A DNA stretch of 64,000 bases from Numidum massiliense (GTDB lineage: Bacteria > Bacillota > Bacilli > Thermoactinomycetales > Novibacillaceae). The stretch is from contig NZ_CTDZ01000009.1 of NCBI RefSeq assembly GCF_001375555.1, forward strand, positions 3,403,758-3,467,757, given 5' to 3'. Position 1 is the stretch's first letter; each line of letters opens with the position of its first letter. Position numbers and translations under genes: made by a program. Shown piece by piece: positions 13,619-51,402 of this stretch. The notes beneath the pieces were generated by a model. The model did no database searches. It was not told the origin of the DNA and saw nothing but the letters and a program-made list of their open reading frames with translations.

Positions 13619-14797
13619 ATGACTAAGCCACTCGGATTTGAAAAGCCGGTGGGCGTTCGCGATTATTTGCCGGAATCAGTGTACAAACTGCGCGTGATCG
13701 AGCAACGGCTGAGCTCCTTATTCAACAGCTGGGGTTATGAGGAAACGATGACGCCGACATTAGAATATTACGACACAGTAGGAGTCGCCAGCGCGATCGC
13801 TGACCACCGGTTGTTTAAACTGCTCGATACACACGGTCGGACGTTAGTCCTCAGACCGGATATGACGACACCGATTGCGCGTGTCGTCGCTTCGGTTATG
13901 CAGCGCGAGGTGTTGCCGCTTCGCTTGTCATACCACGCAAATATTTTTCGCGCGCAAGAAAACGAGGCGGGGCGCAGCGCTGAATTTTTTGAGAAGGGCG
14001 TGGAGCTGATCGGTGACGCTTCAGTGGACGGGGATGCGGAAATGTTGGCGCTAGCTGTCGCCAGTTTGCAAGTGAGTCGGGTCAGCTCTTTTAAAATAAC
14101 AGTCGGTCACGAAGCGTTCTTGACTGCTTTTTTACGGGAGCGAATTGCTGAGTCGCGCGTGCGGGATGCGTTAAAGCGCGAGCTGCACGACCGCGACTAC
14201 GTCGGCTATCGACAGCGCGTCGCCACTTTACCTGTTGAGGAAGAAACAAAACGTGAATTAAACGCGCTCCTTTTACAGCGCGGCGGCGAAGATGTGCTCC
14301 GTGCGCAGTTACCGCATTGTCGTTCGCGCGAGGAAACGAGTGCCTTGAACCATTTGCTCGCGTTAGCGCAGGCGCTAGAGGCATACGGGGTGACGTCGTT
14401 TATCACTTTCGATCTCGGACTATTAGGGAAAATGAATTATTATACCGGTATTTGTTTTGAAGGGTACGCCGAACAGCACGGTTTTCCGCTCCTTAGCGGT
14501 GGGCGCTACGACGCGTTACTGCAAAAGTTCGGGCGGCCTGCGGCGGCGGTCGGTTTTTCGCTCAAGCTGGATCGTTTGGCCGAGTTGAGTCCCGTGCTGA
14601 CTTCAATGCCGCGTCGCTGCTTAATCGTATACGCACCCGAGGCGCGTATGACCGCCTTAGCGGCGGCGGCTGCACGGCGTGAAAAAGAGTGGCAGGTCAC
14701 CGTACAAGTGTCGACGGCGTTATCGCCTACCGCCCTTAAGCAGCTGCGGTCGCGGTATGACGAAGTCGTCGTCGTAAAGGGGGAGGCCGATGAATGA
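13619..14797 (+). CDS. hisZ: ATP phosphoribosyltransferase regulatory subunit
   Basis: HisZ is a histidyl-tRNA synthetase paralogue that lacks aminoacylation and is required to activate the short form of HisG. The protein has class II synthetase-like motif 1 and 2 regions ([49 protein letters not shown]) and the HisS-like block [11 protein letters not shown] followed by [13 protein letters not shown]. The C-terminus is short and lacks the synthetase anticodon-binding domain. The ATG follows GAGGGAGAG. It is the first gene of the his operon, overlaps hisG by 8 bp and fits the short HisG next to it. Confidence 0.95.
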
Positions 14798-15530
14798 GCT
14801 GGATGCACGGGCAGGCCAGTTGAGGCAGGCTGCGGAGGCAGAACAATTGCTCACTGTGGCGATGCCGAAAGGGCGTATTTTTTCCGAAGCCACGGCGTTG
14901 TTACGGCGGGCGGGTATGCCGCTGCCAGCGGATTTGAGTGACGATTCACGTAAACTGATCGTACCCGTTCCCACAGCTAACGTTTCGCTAATATTGGCTA
15001 AACCTACGGACATTCCGACGTATGTCGAATACGGGGCGGCCGACATCGGTATCGTCGGCAAAGACGTGTTATTAGAAGAAGCGCGGGACGTGTATGAACT
15101 GTTGGACTTAGGCATCGGCCGCTGCCACCTCGCCGTCGCCACCTTGCCACAGCAAGAGTCGCGCCCATTCGCGCGCGTAGCGACGAAATACCCGCTGACC
15201 GCGACGCGTTACTTTCGCGCTAAGGGACAGCAAGTCGAGGTCGTCAAGCTGAACGGGTCGGTCGAACTCGCACCGATGATCGGATTGGCGGAGCGCATCG
15301 TCGACATCGTGTCGACAGGGCGTACGCTGCGCGAGAACGGGTTAGTCGAAACGGAGACCGTATGCACCGTGACGTCTAGGCTCATTGCCAACCGCGTCAG
15401 CTACGGCATGAAGTATGAGGTGATCGATGCGCTCTGTCGGCAATTGAGCCGTGTTGTACAGTTGGCCGAAGATAGCGTGTTAGGAGAAGGTAGCGTGTTA
15501 GGAGATGTTCGGGAGGGGAATGTGCGATGA
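14790..15530 (+). CDS. hisG: ATP phosphoribosyltransferase catalytic subunit, short form
   Basis: It catalyses the first step of histidine synthesis, joining ATP and PRPP. The core is recognisable by [24 protein letters not shown] and the PRPP-binding block [15 protein letters not shown]-like at [18 protein letters not shown]. It lacks the regulatory C-terminal domain of long HisG, so it needs HisZ, encoded immediately upstream. An N-terminal extension of about 20 residues precedes the usual start. The C-terminus carries [11 protein letters not shown], produced by an 18-bp duplication (15473-15508). It overlaps hisD by 4 bp. Confidence 0.96.
15473..15508 (+). repeat. 18-bp tandem duplication at the hisG 3' end
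   Basis: Copies at 15473-15490 and 15491-15508 share at least the first 15 bases (TAGCGTGTTAGGAGA) and extend the HisG tail in frame. Confidence 0.85.
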
Positions 15531-16885
15531 TTAGACGAGTAGCGCCAGCGGCTTTATCGATTGAACGGCAAGTAGAAATAGGGACTGCCGCACAGCGACA
15601 AACGGTAGACGACATCGTGCAAGCCGTGCGCGAGTGCGGGGACGACGCGGTGCGGCAGTGGACTGCTGCGCTCGACGGCGTGGAGTTGGCCGAATACCGC
15701 GTCGCAGAGGAGGAAATAGCTCGTGCCCTACAGGCGACAGACGCGGCGTTGCTGCGAGCGTTACAGAAGGCCGCGGAGCGGATTAGGCGGTTTCACGAGC
15801 GGCAACGGCGCACGTCGTGGATCGAGCCGGAAGCGGACGGGACGGTGCTCGGGCAGCTTGTACGTCCGTTGGAAACAGTCGGTGTGTACGTACCGGGCGG
15901 ACGTGCCGCTTATCCTTCTTCGGTGTTAATGAGTGTCATCCCGGCGCGAGTTGCAGGTGTTCAGCGCATCGTCATGGTGACGCCACCGCACAAAGACGGG
16001 AGTGTCCACGCAGCGATTCTTGCGGCGGCACACGTGGCAGGTGTCAGTGAAATATATAAGGTCGGGGGGGCGCAGGCGGTGGCGGCGCTCGCCTTCGGTA
16101 CGGCGACGATTCCGCGCGTCGACAAAATAGTCGGGCCGGGTAACATATACGTCACACTGGCCAAGCGCGCCGTGTTCGGTACAGTCGCCATCGACATGAT
16201 CGCCGGTCCGAGCGAGATTGTCGTGTTTGCCGATGAAACGGCGGATCCGGTTGCGGCCGCTGCCGACATGCTATCTCAAGCGGAACACGACCCGCTCGCC
16301 TCCGCCGTGTTGGTGACGACGTCAGCCGCGCTCGCGGATGCGGTAGAGGCGGAGCTTTCGCGGCAGTGCCGAGAGCTCGCACGGGCCGACATCGCTGCTG
16401 CGGCTCTGCGCGATTACGGGGCGATTTGTGTCGCGGCGAACGAGGCAGAAGCAATTGCGGTCGTGAACAGGCTGGCACCGGAACATTTGGAACTGCTCGT
16501 GCGCGACCCGTGGGCAGTGCTCGGGCGCGTACACCACGCTGGCGCCATTTTTCTCGGACACAATAGTCCGGAGCCAGTGGGCGATTATTGGGCCGGACCG
16601 AACCACATTTTGCCGACGAACGGTACGGCCCGCTTTTCTTCTCCACTCGGCGTGGACGACTTCTTGAAGCATTCGAGCGTCATCGCCTACAGCGCGACGG
16701 CACTTGCCCGCGACGCGGCACAAATCGTCACATTGGCCGAAAGCGAAGGGCTCGGGGCGCACGCTGCAGCCGTGCGGGTGCGCGTCAAAGGCTGCGAGGC
16801 GGGGGCACACAAGGACCGCGCGGCTGGAATGCATGTGAACCGTACGGAAGAAATGCATGGAACCGTAAGGAAGATGTACACGTGA
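15527..16885 (+). CDS. hisD: histidinol dehydrogenase
   Basis: This zinc enzyme carries out the last two oxidations of the pathway, histidinol to histidine, with NAD. Family blocks are visible: [65 protein letters not shown], and [14 protein letters not shown] followed by [10 protein letters not shown]. The usual C-terminus is reached near [16 protein letters not shown]. The remaining 30 or so residues come from a tandem repeat that overruns the gene end (MHVNRTEE-type repeats) and are unlikely to be functional. The length of 452 residues compares with about 427 in B. subtilis. Confidence 0.96.
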
Positions 16886-16940
16886 ACCGTACGGAAGAGA
16901 TGCATGTGAACCGTACGGAAGATGTACACGCGAATAAAGA
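16829..16940 (+). repeat. about 22-26-bp tandem repeat array at the hisD/hisB junction
   Basis: Four recognisable copies of ATG-CATGTGAACCGTACGGAAG (some with TACACG instead of CATG) plus a decayed fifth cover the hisD 3' end and the gap to hisB. The hisD stop falls inside copy three; the unit encodes MHVNRTEE in one frame. Confidence 0.88.
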
Positions 16941-16952
16941 GGGGGGATTGCC

Positions 16953-17603
16953 GTGAGGAGCGAAGGAATAGTGAAAACGAAGAAGCAGCCGCCAGCGCCA
17001 GTGCAGCAACCGCCAACGCCGCGAACAGCGGAAGTTAAGCGGACGACGAAAGAGACGGATATCGCGCTTGCGCTCTGTTTAGACGGCAGCGGCGAGACGC
17101 AGTTAAATACGGGAGTGCCATTTTTATCACACATGCTCGATCTATTTGCTAAACACGGCCAATTTGACCTCAGCGTTACGGCTAAAGGAGATACGGAAGT
17201 TGACGATCACCATACGACGGAAGATATTGCGCTCTGTCTCGGGCAGGCGATTCGGCGCGCTTTAGGGGACAAGCGCGGCATTTGTCGCTACGGGCACGTT
17301 TTTGTACCGATGGACGAGGCGCTCGGACAAGTTGTCGTCGATTTAAGCAACCGCCCACACCTCGAGTTCCGCGCTTCCTTACCGAGTCAGCGTGTCGGTA
17401 CGTTTGATACAGAACTGGTACACGAATTTTTTTGGAAATTAGCGTTAGAGGCACGCTGTAATTTACACGTCATCGCGCATTACGGTTCCAATACACACCA
17501 TATGATCGAGTCGCTGTTCAAGGCACTTGGCCGCGCCTTGGACCAAGCGGTACAAATCGATCCTCGCGTGCAAGGGGTGCCGTCTTCGAAAGGGGTACTG
17601 TAA
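16953..17603 (+). CDS. hisB: imidazoleglycerol-phosphate dehydratase
   Basis: The enzyme dehydrates imidazoleglycerol phosphate using a di-manganese site. The metal motifs are intact: PFLSHMLDLFAKHG, VDDHHTTEDIALCLG and NTHHMIESLFKALGRAL. The GTG start follows AGAGGGGGG. An N-terminal tail of about 22 residues (Lys/Pro/Gln-rich) precedes the point where the family usually begins (RTAEVKRTTKETD). It is monofunctional, without the phosphatase domain found in enteric HisB. It directly abuts hisH. Confidence 0.96.
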   Translation: MRSEGIVKTKKQPPAPVQQPPTPRTAEVKRTTKETDIALALCLDGSGETQLNTGVPFLSHMLDLFAKHGQFDLSVTAKGDTEVDDHHTTEDIALCLGQAIRRALGDKRGICRYGHVFVPMDEALGQVVVDLSNRPHLEFRASLPSQRVGTFDTELVHEFFWKLALEARCNLHVIAHYGSNTHHMIESLFKALGRALDQAVQIDPRVQGVPSSKGVL

Positions 17604-18212
17604 GTGATTACGGTCGTCGATTACGGGGCTTACCATGCACAAGCGGTGGCGCAAGCACTCAAGCGGTTGACTAGCGATGAAACAGTAACAGTGAGCACCG
17701 ACCCGGAAGTCATCTTGCAGAGTGACGGCGTCATCGTACCGGGCGGGGGCGTTTGCGCTGTGGCGATGCGCGGTATTCAACGCAACGGGCTACGCGACGT
17801 ATTGTGGCAAACGTCACTTCGCGGAGTGCCGCTGCTCGGCATCGGACTCGGCATGCACGTATTGTTTTCCGAAAGTGAGGAACACGGGCTGCACCGCGGT
17901 CTCAATTTACTTCCCGGTTGTGTGGAGAAATTACCCGTTCCCCACGTCGGTTGGAACGCTCTAGCCATCGCTCAAGCGCACCCGCTGCTCGCCGGACTGG
18001 CAGGACAAATTGTGTACTTTTCCCACACCTACGGCGCGACTGTTGCCAATTACGATGAAACGCTAGCAATCGCGGACGACGGCGGGGGTATAGTCGCAGC
18101 GGTTGGTAGACATCCCGTTTACGGCGTGCAGTTTCATCCGGAAAAAAGCGGTGCCGCTGGAAAAAGGCTATTAGAAAACTTCGTCTCAATGTGCCGAAAG
18201 GAGCGGAAATGA
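17604..18212 (+). CDS. hisH: HisH-type glutamine amidotransferase subunit lacking the catalytic cysteine
   Basis: HisH normally hydrolyses glutamine and feeds ammonia to HisF. The protein aligns over its full 202 residues (SDGVIVPGGG, LLPGCVEKLPVPHVGWN, VYGVQFHPEKSG), but the nucleophile elbow, usually GICLGMQ, reads GIGLGMH: residue 81 is glycine, encoded GGA at 17844-17846. The N-terminal DYGMGN motif is DYGAYH and the oxyanion-strand motif PGVGAF is PGGGVC. The histidine of the triad (FHPEKS) remains. The gene is otherwise intact and translationally linked to hisB and hisA. Glutaminase activity is therefore doubtful; it may have become a structural partner of HisF, which can use free ammonia. 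Confidence 0.9.
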   Translation: MITVVDYGAYHAQAVAQALKRLTSDETVTVSTDPEVILQSDGVIVPGGGVCAVAMRGIQRNGLRDVLWQTSLRGVPLLGIGLGMHVLFSESEEHGLHRGLNLLPGCVEKLPVPHVGWNALAIAQAHPLLAGLAGQIVYFSHTYGATVANYDETLAIADDGGGIVAAVGRHPVYGVQFHPEKSGAAGKRLLENFVSMCRKERK

Positions 18213-18943
18213 TGTTTACGATTTATCCGGCGATCGATTTGCGCGGCGGTCAGTGCGTGCGGCTCGTGCAGGGCGATTACGACCAGGAGACAGTGTACGG
18301 GCGCGATCCCGTCGCAGTTGCTAAGCGATGGGCACGCGAAGGGGCACAGTGGTTACACCTTGTCGATTTAGATGCAGCGCGTACGGGAAAAGCCGTCAAC
18401 TTGCCGCAAATAGCGGCGATTGTCGACGCCGTCGACATTCCGGTACAAGTCGGTGGCGGCATTCGCGACCGCGCGCGCATCGAGCAGTTGTTCGCGCTCG
18501 GGGTGCAGCGGCTCATCGTCGGGTCGGCTGCCATTGACGACGTCGATCTCGTTAGCTGGGCACTGGAAGCTTACGGCTCGCGCATTGCGATCGGCATCGA
18601 TGCGAAAGAAGGTTACGTGGCGACGCACGGCTGGTTACAGACGAGTGACGTTCATGCGGAAAAGTTAGCACAGCAGTTGCGGCAACGTGGTGCTAGGACG
18701 TTTATTTTTACCGACATCGCCCGCGACGGGATGCTCAGCGGGCCGAATATCACTGCCATTCGCCAGTTTGCTGCCGCGTCTGGCGGCGAAGTGATTGCTT
18801 CCGGCGGTGTAGCGACCCCCGCCCACTTGGCGGAACTAAAGGAGCTGGCGGAGAAAGGAGTTGTTGGTGCCATCGTCGGTCGCGCGCTTTACACTGGGGA
18901 TGTCGTGTTGTCAGAGGCACAGGAGATGTTAGCTAAGGAATAG
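18209..18943 (+). CDS. hisA: ProFAR isomerase (HisA)
   Basis: This is a (beta/alpha)8 barrel that isomerises ProFAR to PRFAR. Half-barrel phosphate motifs IPVQVGGGIRD and GEVIASGGVATP are present, with the catalytic aspartates in YPAIDLRGG and IAIGIDAKEGYVATHGW, and FTDIARDGMLSGPN after them. The start is ATG at 18209 or 18212, four bases inside the hisH end; AAAGGAG at 18197-18203 fits either. Its length is normal for the family. Confidence 0.96.
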   Translation: MMFTIYPAIDLRGGQCVRLVQGDYDQETVYGRDPVAVAKRWAREGAQWLHLVDLDAARTGKAVNLPQIAAIVDAVDIPVQVGGGIRDRARIEQLFALGVQRLIVGSAAIDDVDLVSWALEAYGSRIAIGIDAKEGYVATHGWLQTSDVHAEKLAQQLRQRGARTFIFTDIARDGMLSGPNITAIRQFAAASGGEVIASGGVATPAHLAELKELAEKGVVGAIVGRALYTGDVVLSEAQEMLAKE

Positions 18944-18970: not shown

Positions 18971-19732
18971 ATGGTTGCGAAGCGCATTATCGCATGTTTG
19001 GATGTGAAAGGCGGCAGAGTCGTTAAAGGGGTGTCGTTCACTCGGCTCCGCGACGCGGGCGACCCCGTCGAACTGGCGCGCGCGTACGACAGGGAAGGGG
19101 CTGACGAACTCGTTTTTTTAGACATTTCAGCGACGAATGAAGAACGCGAGACGACTGTTGAAGTTGTCCGCGACATCGCGGCCAATATCAGCATCCCGTT
19201 TACGGTCGGCGGGGGCATTCGCTCCGTCGCCCAGATGGAGCAATTGCTTCGCGCCGGCGCCGACAAAGTATCGCTCAGCACGGCAGCAGTGGAACAGCCA
19301 CAGTTAATCGCTGAGGGCGCACGCAAGTTTGGCGGTCAGCGCATCGTCGTCGCCATCGACGCCCGATACGATCGGCAAAAAAAAGATTGGTTCGTGTATA
19401 CGAGGGGCGGCCAGCAGCGAACGGCGCTGCCGGCGCGTGCATGGGCCGAACGAGCGGCCGAGCTAGGCGCTGGCGAGCTGCTTCTCACGAGTATGAACCG
19501 CGACGGACATAAAAACGGGTACGACGTGCCGCTGACGAGAGAAGTTGCGACTCACGTCGCGGTGCCGGTGATCGCTTCCGGCGGTGCAGGCAGTGCTGCT
19601 CACTTCGTCGACGTCTTAACCGACGGTAAAGCAGCGGCTGCACTCGCCGCATCCATTTTCCACTTCCGCGAAGTGACGATCTCCGAAGTGAAGGCACGAC
19701 TTAAGGAGAAAGGGGTGGCCGTACGATGCTAA
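18971..19732 (+). CDS. hisF: imidazole glycerol phosphate synthase cyclase subunit
   Basis: HisF cyclises PRFAR with ammonia to imidazoleglycerol phosphate and AICAR. The barrel is complete: [18 protein letters not shown] (catalytic Asp11 kept), [36 protein letters not shown] (Asp130 kept), LLTSMNRDG and VIASGGAGS. Compared with the Thermotoga enzyme from memory, Asn103 appears as Ser (SLSTAA for SINTAA) and SIDRDG as SMNRDG. These changes accompany the damaged HisH. ATG at 18971 has AAAGGA nine bases upstream. It overlaps hisIE by 7 bp. Confidence 0.95.
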
Positions 19733-20430
19733 CTGCGGCACGACTACCGGCACGCCTACGCTTTGACAGCAACGGTTTAGTTCCGGCGATTATCCAGGAC
19801 GCCGCGACGAAAGAAGTGCTGACTCTCGCATATATGAATGAAACGGCGCTTACCCACACGGTAGAAACGGGCGAGGTATGGTTGTGGAGCCGCTCGCGAC
19901 AGCAACTGTGGCACAAAGGGGAGACGTCGGGAAACACCCAGCGCGTCGTAGCGATCAGCTTTGACTGCGACGACGACGCATTGCTCGTGCAAGTTGTCCC
20001 GCGGGGGCCTGCGTGTCATACGGGGACGGTTTCTTGTTTCCGCGAAGCGGCGTATAGGGACAGCGAGGAACGAACAGATGCACCTACTGGAGCGACTAAC
20101 GAGGAGCAACCGATATCGACAAAGGCAGCGAGTGACGACTTACTCCGCGTTCTGCGCGAATTAGAGGTAGTTGTCGCGGCGCGGGAGAAGGAACGGCCAC
20201 AAGGGGCGTACACGACGTATTTATTCACTGAAGGACTGGACAAAATATTGAAGAAGGTCGGGGAAGAGGCGAGTGAAGTCATTATCGCGGCCAAAAACCG
20301 CTCGGCGAGCGAATTGCGCGCTGAAGCGGCGGACCTTCTCTACCACTTACTCGTTTTGCTACGCGAACAGCGACTCCCGCTAGCGAGTGTGCTTGAAGAA
20401 TTACAAAGCCGGCAGCTACAGAGCGAGTAA
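19726..20430 (+). CDS. hisIE: bifunctional phosphoribosyl-AMP cyclohydrolase / phosphoribosyl-ATP pyrophosphohydrolase
   Basis: Two domains catalyse steps two and three of the pathway. HisI (about 1-125) has [20 protein letters not shown] and the metal-site segments [11 protein letters not shown] and [12 protein letters not shown]. HisE (about 145-234) has the MazG-like helices [29 protein letters not shown] and [15 protein letters not shown] Ser/Thr/Glu-rich linker of about 25 residues joins them. It is the last his gene, overlapping hisF by 7 bp, and completes the operon. Confidence 0.96.
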
Positions 20431-51036: not shown

Positions 51037-51402
51037 GGGGGCGTTTTTTGGATTCGACGGAGATAGTTCGAGCGTTAGTAGCGAGCCGAGGGGCTGCGTC
51101 CTTCGTAAAAACGCGGAACGCCAAATGTAACTGGCAAACAAGAAAACTTTGCTCTGGCTGCTTAATTAAGCTAGTCAGGATCCGCTACTCTATCGCCCAT
51201 GTAGAGTAATCGGGTCTCATTAACAGTGGGATAGCCAACCGGAGTCGTTGCCGGCCGGGCGGTGAAACAAAGGTAACTAGCCGTAAGAATCGCCTGTCAC
51301 TGGGCAGTTCATACGTGTGAAATTTGAATACAGTGACTGCGCTCGGAGAATCTGGCGTGGCGATATCTTCGGACAGCGGTTCGACTCCGCTCGCCTCCAC
51401 CA
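51037..51402 (+). ncRNA. ssrA: transfer-messenger RNA
   Basis: The 5' end GGGGGCG...GGATTCGACGG and the 3' tRNA-like end (GACAGCGGTTCGACTCCGCTCGCCTCC-type T-arm and acceptor, then ACCA) pair as in one-piece tmRNA. The open reading frame at 51133-51165 encodes GKQENFALAA and a stop; with the alanine carried by tmRNA the tag is AGKQENFALAA. The ALAA end is the usual ClpXP recognition signal. It directly follows smpB. Confidence 0.96.

Follow-up and report, generated by a model that had tools for sequence, protein, structure and literature searches.

How does a histidine operon work when HisH, its glutaminase subunit, carries glycine at the position of the nucleophilic cysteine? This question is raised by a stretch of 64,000 nucleotides from Numidum massiliense, hereafter the window. 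Glutamine is normally an obligatory nitrogen courier. The answer was sought in the gene itself, in its relatives, and in the other glutamine-dependent enzymes of the same genome (G000).

The hisH Gene and the Histidine Operon

The operon in the window has the order hisZ-hisG-hisD-hisB-hisH-hisA-hisF-hisIE (Table 1). All eight genes are open, and each product scores above at least one family cut-off. The gene hisB ends at 17603 and hisH begins at 17604. The hisH stop codon at 18210-18212 overlaps an ATG of hisA at 18209, and a second ATG is present at 18212. A hisC-like aminotransferase gene, named from its sequence alone, adjoins the trp operon.

Table 1. Features of the histidine operon in the window and related loci of genus g89
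Feature	Position	Strand	Evidence and remarks
hisZ, hisG, hisD (upstream part of the operon)	13619..16885	+	ORFs, profiles
hisB (directly upstream of hisH)	16953..17603	+	ORF, profile
hisH	17604..18212	+	TIGR01855, 156.5 bits (cut-off 105.4), so still recognised by the profile; AlphaFold model; solved-structure match
HisH residues 8-11, GAYH replacing GMGN	17625..17636	+	Alignment
HisH residues 46-51, PGGGVC replacing PGVGAF; oxyanion strand altered; includes Cys51	17739..17756	+	Alignment
HisH codon 81, GGA (Gly), nucleophile elbow GIGLGMH; Cys in 105 of 106 HisH	17844..17846	+	Translation, alignments
HisH residues 178-181, HPEK; catalytic His and Glu and HisF-facing Lys kept	18135..18146	+	Translation, alignment
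hisA (ATG overlapping the hisH stop)	18209..18943	+	ORF, profile
hisF (cyclase subunit); Asp11 and Asp130 kept; Asn103Ser and Asp176Asn (window numbering) unusual	18971..19732	+	TIGR00735, 353 bits (cut-off 294.55)
hisIE (downstream end of the operon)	19726..20430	+	ORF, profile
PyrAA and PurQ with Cys-to-Gly in genus g89	L234, L235, L236, L242, L258-L262		Genomes with and without glutamine synthetase

The translation of hisH reads DYGAYH, PGGGVC and LLGIGLGMHVLF. The triad positions are Gly81, His178 and Glu180, and both oxyanion-hole loops are changed (PGGG; His11). The codon GGA is two substitutions away from TGT or TGC. The residues for docking on HisF are kept; they are Trp117 (the Trp of HxGWN) and Lys181 (of HPEK) in HisH and Asp98 in HisF. 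We take Trp117 to correspond to residue 123 of T. maritima, and we assume both the docking role of this Trp and Lys181 and the T. maritima numbering applied to HisH and HisF. In T. maritima, HisH Asn12 contacts HisF Asp98 in the active complex, and 49-PGVG-52 is the strand whose peptide flips and forms the oxyanion hole (PMC8115485). The changes in the window HisH fall on these catalysis-linked positions, namely the nucleophile, the flipping strand, and the Asn meeting HisF Asp98. With Gly at the nucleophile position and the oxyanion machinery lost, HisH presumably cannot hydrolyse glutamine.

An earlier inspection of the DNA, the sequence-only reading, had described the GIGLGMH elbow with its GGA codon two substitutions from a cysteine codon, and the alteration of DYGMGN and PGVGAF; the translation agrees with it on these points. 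It had also held that the rest of the protein, the frame and the coupling in the operon are preserved, which is borne out by the profile score above cut-off, the open frame and the abutting or overlapping neighbours. The changes in HisF that it mentioned (SLSTAA and SMNRDG) are real but milder than those in HisH: 8 of 108 invariant columns are changed, against 2 of 89 in the sister genome G001, whose HisF is cut short in its locus. The residue altered in SMNRDG corresponds to T. maritima Asp174 rather than to Asp176. Besides the two catalytic Asp residues, HisF keeps Asp98, Arg5, Glu46, Lys99 and the Glu of GAGE.

Comparison of HisH with Relatives

The wider HisH set consisted of 110 loci (30 plus 80). 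Three of them (L110-L112) were GuaA-like and one (L109) stops short of the cysteine, which left 106 HisH. The triad is Cys/His/Glu in 105 of these, and the window HisH with Gly/His/Glu is the only exception. No second HisH was found when the same genome was searched. Alignment with relatives and a search for a second intact hisH had been proposed as checks in the sequence-only reading.

Invariant columns were compared with 29 relatives for HisH, the duplicate L001 being left out, and with 27 relatives for HisF. The window HisH has changes in 13 of 61 invariant columns (G10Y, N11H, S14A, L45V, V48G, F51C, L58I, C81G, L86V, S142T, D152E, T157A and Y159D), and the HisH of G001 in 3 of 64. In trees of 11 genomes, the window genome and G001 pair as sisters for all eight his proteins. 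The terminal branch of HisH is 1.057 for the window genome and 0.166 for the sister, a ratio of 6.35. The ratios for the seven other proteins (HisZ, HisG, HisD, HisB, HisA, HisF and HisIE) range from 0.56 to 2.13; those of HisB, HisG, HisD, HisZ and HisA are between 0.56 and 1.51, and HisF and HisIE are accelerated about twofold. In a neutral simulation starting from the sister hisH, a simple one with substitutions alone and frameshifts left out, the proportion of stop-free runs was 15%, 3% and 0.7% at 0.1, 0.2 and 0.3 substitutions per site, respectively.

The AlphaFold model of HisH has a mean pLDDT of 92.8. Its best match among solved structures is the HisH chain 7ac8_B (Z 30.1, rmsd 1.3, 192 residues), and the top eight matches are all HisH chains (Z 26.8-30.1, rmsd 1.3-1.8, 188-193 aligned residues). 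The fold is predicted to be intact, with the reservation that a high-confidence model is expected from the family alignment and is no proof of stability. HisH thus has the features of a pseudoenzyme: its nucleophile is lost, its frame and predicted fold are kept, and it evolves faster than its partners.

Other Glutaminase Subunits in the Genome

The PF00117 profile matched five places in the genome: PyrG, GuaA, a hydrolase-like protein of 259 aa (GICRGC), HisH and CarA. An explanation confined to a single gene was dropped once this search led to CarA with the same lesion. The locus has the order argC-argJ-argB-argD-carA-carB-argF, the genes being named from their sequences. CarA reads GFGLGYH and VQCQPH, against GICLGHQ and HPE; Gly/Gln/His replaces Cys/His/Glu, so that all three triad residues are lost. 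Among 37 CarA/PyrAA loci, 32 have Cys/His/Glu, and the other five are this CarA and four PyrAA from genus g89, which belongs to another family. The CarA scores 215 bits with TIGR01368, below the cut-off of 307, and 232 bits with NF009475, above the cut-off of 221. CarB, encoded by a separate gene, is 67% identical to that of the sister. Judged from its residues, the CarA of the arginine operon is a catalytically dead shell.

In the pyr operon, pyrR, pyrP, pyrB, pyrC and pyrAB are present and pyrAA is absent; the pyrC stop abuts the pyrAB start (TGAGTG). The pur operon contains purE, purB, purC, purL, purF, purM, purN, purH and purD, and purS and purQ are absent between purC and purL. In G001, pyrAA is directly before pyrAB, and purS and purQ are between purC and purL. 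Gene names in both operons were assigned from the sequences, and for PurL a profile match was obtained as well. A cluster of ATP-grasp genes at C9:2238000-2246000, considered as the pur operon, turned out to be something else.

Profile or BLAST searches, on which the gene absences rest, found neither a second CarA nor a PurQ nor a TrpG/PabA above cut-off in the genome. PdxT was not found in the genome either, and PdxS is present. The other synthase partners, PyrAB, CarB, PurL, TrpE and PabB, are present as well; TrpE and PabB score just under the cut-offs of TIGR00564 and TIGR00553. TrpG is below cut-off also in G005, G013 and the 67%-complete G014. In G001, pdxS is followed only by a short PdxT-like fragment (L226, G001:C1:218000-230000, ~223139-223444), and PdxT there also looks lost although G001 has two glutamine synthetase matches. 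The losses of TrpG and PdxT are therefore not peculiar to the genome of N. massiliense.

The PabB of this genome (G000:C9:2534400-2536301, L205), for which no PabA was found in G000, carries an extra domain at its C-terminus, which we take to be a PabC-like aminolyase.

Glutamine Synthetase and the Remaining Glutamine Enzymes

A genome that has given up glutamine as the donor might also have lost glutamine synthetase, and this prediction was tested. The glutamine synthetase profile (PF00120) has no match in the N. massiliense genome, which is 3.76 Mb long and rated 100% complete; it found the enzyme in 14 of 14 controls and in 4 of 4 relatives. Of 398 genomes sampled from the class with a requested completeness of at least 95%, 389 have glutamine synthetase. 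The nine genomes without it are G000, G038, G063, G080, G107, G199, G272, G280 and G296. One of the 389, G375, was included on a weak match only (3.3e-7).

With a composite query, no GlmS and no glutamate synthase (GltB) were found in G000, and both were found in G001 by the same query. NagB, two glutamate dehydrogenases, GatA, GatB and AsnB are present in G000 by the composite query. GlnRS and AsnA were not found in G000, but the query had no positive control for them, since all eight genomes searched gave the same negative result; its GlnS part gave only matches of 26-32% identity, taken for GluRS by their length. The gatCAB genes are within 2602500-2609500 of the genome. They were looked for beside ligA and not found there. 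A GlmS-like protein of 387 aa (L255:2763-3923, near C9:3239262-3240422) was not counted as GlmS because it matches the isomerase half only and its scores are far under the GlmS cut-offs. With ammonia as a substrate, NagB could make glucosamine-6-phosphate. In Akkermansia without GlmS, according to the part of the report available to us, NagB failed at this step under physiological conditions and GlcNAc was needed (PMC5902328).

GuaA, PyrG and AsnB keep their catalytic residues; the elbows of PyrG and GuaA are normal and HPE is present. The glutaminase domain of GuaA is 65% identical to that of the sister and the synthase half 80%. The gap is small in PurF (76% for the glutaminase half, 81% for the synthase half), which keeps its Cys and has RYSTRD for RYSTTG. 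The intact residues of GuaA, PyrG and AsnB speak against a total absence of glutamine. The retained domains of GuaA, PyrG, AsnB and PurF may mean that some glutamine is available, perhaps from outside, or they may have a structural role.

A Second Lineage with Cys-to-Gly Glutaminases

In genus g89, the PyrAA elbow is GIGLGHQ or GIGMGHQ in all four genomes examined (G199, G272, G375 and G312), with the triads Gly/His/Glu twice and Gly/Tyr/Glu twice. No PyrAA match was found in G296 of the same genus. The PurQ of all five genomes has GVGNGF, and its His is replaced by Leu. The five genomes have no HisH match, and the search for GlmS and TrpG gave only PurF- and GuaA-sized matches in them; NagB matches are found in all five. 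G312 has a full glutamine synthetase together with dead PyrAA and PurQ. This pattern indicates that the glutaminases there died while the synthetase was still present, and a strict order in which glutamine synthetase is lost first was rejected as a general rule.

G038, from the same order as N. massiliense, has no matches for glutamine synthetase, HisH, CarA, PurQ and TrpG, and keeps GlmS. From its gene content it seems to have lost whole pathways and is perhaps heavily auxotrophic. A missing synthetase alone thus does not predict the syndrome of glutaminase loss.

Interpretation and Alternatives

It is quite likely that HisH is a pseudo-glutaminase serving as the structural partner of an ammonia-fed HisF, in a metabolism that has largely switched from glutamine to ammonia as nitrogen donor. 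The pattern in the genome suggests that nitrogen compounds are built from free ammonia. The sequence-only reading had proposed a pseudo-amidotransferase kept as a partner of HisF or a reliance on ammonia. Its proposal has gained comparative evidence, as there is no second hisH, CarA appears dead, and other glutaminases and glutamine synthetase were not found.

HisH would still fold and very probably still docks on HisF. HisF would make imidazole glycerol phosphate from free ammonia, most likely by direct entry, and nitrogen would probably enter metabolism via glutamate dehydrogenase. The detachable glutaminases appear to have been cut cleanly from their operons (PyrAA, PurS/PurQ), to be absent (TrpG/PabA, PdxT) or to be left as dead shells (HisH, CarA), the ammonia-using synthase subunits being retained throughout. 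The two shells probably persist since the synthases fold around them or since they shape the entrance for ammonia; their survival beside the deletion of other glutaminases is in keeping with a structural requirement for HisH and CarA. Glycine is the least strained residue at the nucleophile elbow, and this may be the reason why the same change recurs in each shell. By relieving strain, it might conceivably also open the old glutamine pocket towards the tunnel. An ammonia-rich habitat may have been the driver.

Several observations do not fit this reading smoothly. The catalytic residues of GuaA, PyrG and AsnB and the Cys of PurF are intact. G312 combines glutamine synthetase with dead PyrAA and PurQ, so that loss of the synthetase is not a general first cause. 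G001 is without an intact PdxT though it has glutamine synthetase, G005, G013 and the incomplete G014 likewise have TrpG scores under the cut-off, and G038 keeps GlmS without having the synthetase, HisH or CarA. HisF and HisIE are themselves accelerated about twofold.

This last point, together with the changed invariant columns of HisF, would be expected if the whole his operon were decaying towards histidine auxotrophy with HisH as the first casualty. Such a decay is improbable, as all eight genes are open, in order and above at least one family cut-off, a hisC-like gene stands beside the trp operon, the branches of the other five proteins are 0.56-1.51 times those of the sister, and HisF keeps both catalytic Asp residues; it would also leave unexplained why losses are focused on the glutaminase subunits of other pathways. 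Less improbable, though still unlikely, is a rich habitat such as a gut, where glutamine and ammonia are imported and selection is relaxed, with no ordered switch to ammonia. The kept catalytic residues of GuaA, PyrG and AsnB, the presence of gatCAB, the synthetase-less G038 with its GlmS, and the uptake of GlcNAc, which can meet the absence of GlmS as described for Akkermansia in the part of that report available to us (PMC5902328), are in line with it. With plentiful glutamine, however, glutaminases would be useful, and one would not expect synthases to be retained alone; that glutaminases are gone or dead across the pyr, pur, arg, trp and his operons points instead to ammonia as the donor.

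It is very improbable that HisH has remained a glutaminase by means of a different nucleophile, such as Cys51. Cys51 does belong to the oxyanion strand (PGGGVC), close to the active site, and His178 and Glu180 are kept, but this cysteine stands in place of a conserved Phe (F51C) rather than of the elbow residue, PGVG as the strand that flips has been lost together with the Asn contacting HisF Asp98, the CarA triad is wholly lost, and glutamine synthetase was not found. An error of sequencing or assembly at the cysteine codon has a negligible probability. Only one genome of the genus, and two of the family, could be compared; still, the codon differs by two substitutions, 13 invariant columns are changed, loop lengths are altered, and the same residue change is seen in CarA.

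With a pseudo-glutaminase as the preferred reading of HisH, a wider proposal can be put forward tentatively, as a possibility that falls somewhat short of even. It is that an ammonia economy has arisen repeatedly in Bacilli, at least twice and in unrelated lineages, where enough free ammonia is met for glutamine to be given up as nitrogen donor. Detachable glutaminases would then be excised or become Cys-to-Gly shells (HisH and CarA here, PyrAA and PurQ in the other lineage), GlmS would be lost while NagB stays, glutamine synthetase could be lost afterwards, and the shells would stabilise the synthase and serve as an ammonia mouth.

Comparison with Known Systems

The window HisH has its family, fold, operon position and docking residues in common with the HisF-HisH of T. 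maritima and E. coli. Unlike those, it is without the nucleophilic Cys and the oxyanion loops, and judging by the alignment the glutamine half-reaction should be impossible. Isolated HisF can use ammonia in vitro when its concentration is high and the pH basic (PMC11350729, PMC3896937). In Corynebacterium glutamicum, the deletion of hisH gives no histidine auxotrophy, and an ammonia-dependent HisF in vivo was proposed with reference to unpublished observations, in the portion available to us (PMC3896937); the question is left open in the accessible text of another paper (PMC1590026). The HisH of C. glutamicum itself is functional, unlike that of the window.

In vertebrate carbamoyl phosphate synthetase I (CPS I), the cysteine is replaced by Ser. 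This free-ammonia enzyme has a class I glutaminase domain without the Cys, as stated in the part of the source at hand (PMC7657897). CPS I is one fused animal enzyme of the urea cycle, activated by N-acetylglutamate, whereas separate bacterial subunits, several pathways and Gly are involved here. As in CPS I, the Cys of the small subunit is missing and the large subunit is present; the two are separate genes and not a fused chain. CarA/CarB may work like CPS I but are not a member.

The genomes of Blochmannia vafer, Syntrophaceticus schinkii and T. acetatoxydans were reported to be without glutamine synthetase, as far as the accessible parts of the reports go (PMC3017870, PMC5113046). These parts report no matching loss of glutaminase subunits, unlike the window genome. 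The genus of T. acetatoxydans is presumably Tepidanaerobacter. The intracellular symbiont B. vafer, whose genome is reduced, has retained carAB, for which the authors of that report proposed the use of ammonia. Nitrogen assimilation in Sporosarcina pasteurii was also compared: strain DSM33 grew without glutamine, and the fate of glutaminase subunits is unmentioned in the part of the source at hand. In a table of about 570-660 genomes per enzyme, as available to us, no carbamoyl phosphate synthetase, PurL or anthranilate synthase is without its glutaminase component (PMC3376133, Table 1).

No earlier report of a HisH without the cysteine, or of a linked loss of glutaminase subunits and glutamine synthetase, was found among open-access titles and the beginnings of abstracts, with subscription journals mostly outside this search. 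The lack of glutamine synthetase is already known elsewhere; what found no earlier report is the combination in one genome of apparently dead shells, clean deletions and a missing synthetase. This genome-wide setting makes the loss in HisH more interesting than a lone missing cysteine. The genome is a natural experiment on when ammonia channelling becomes dispensable, on the order of losses, and on the structural job of a dead glutaminase. The natural Cys-to-Gly shells of HisH, CarA/PyrAA and PurQ make the question of a structural role directly testable.

Other Features of the Window

A tandem repeat with a 24/48-bp unit (AACCGTACGGAAGA...) is present at 16828-16934. It extends over the last part of hisD and the space in front of hisB, and is read as repeated HVNRTEEMH-like peptides. 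A cobalamin riboswitch (1205-1395) and a tmRNA (51037-51402) are found in the window, both above the Rfam gathering scores.
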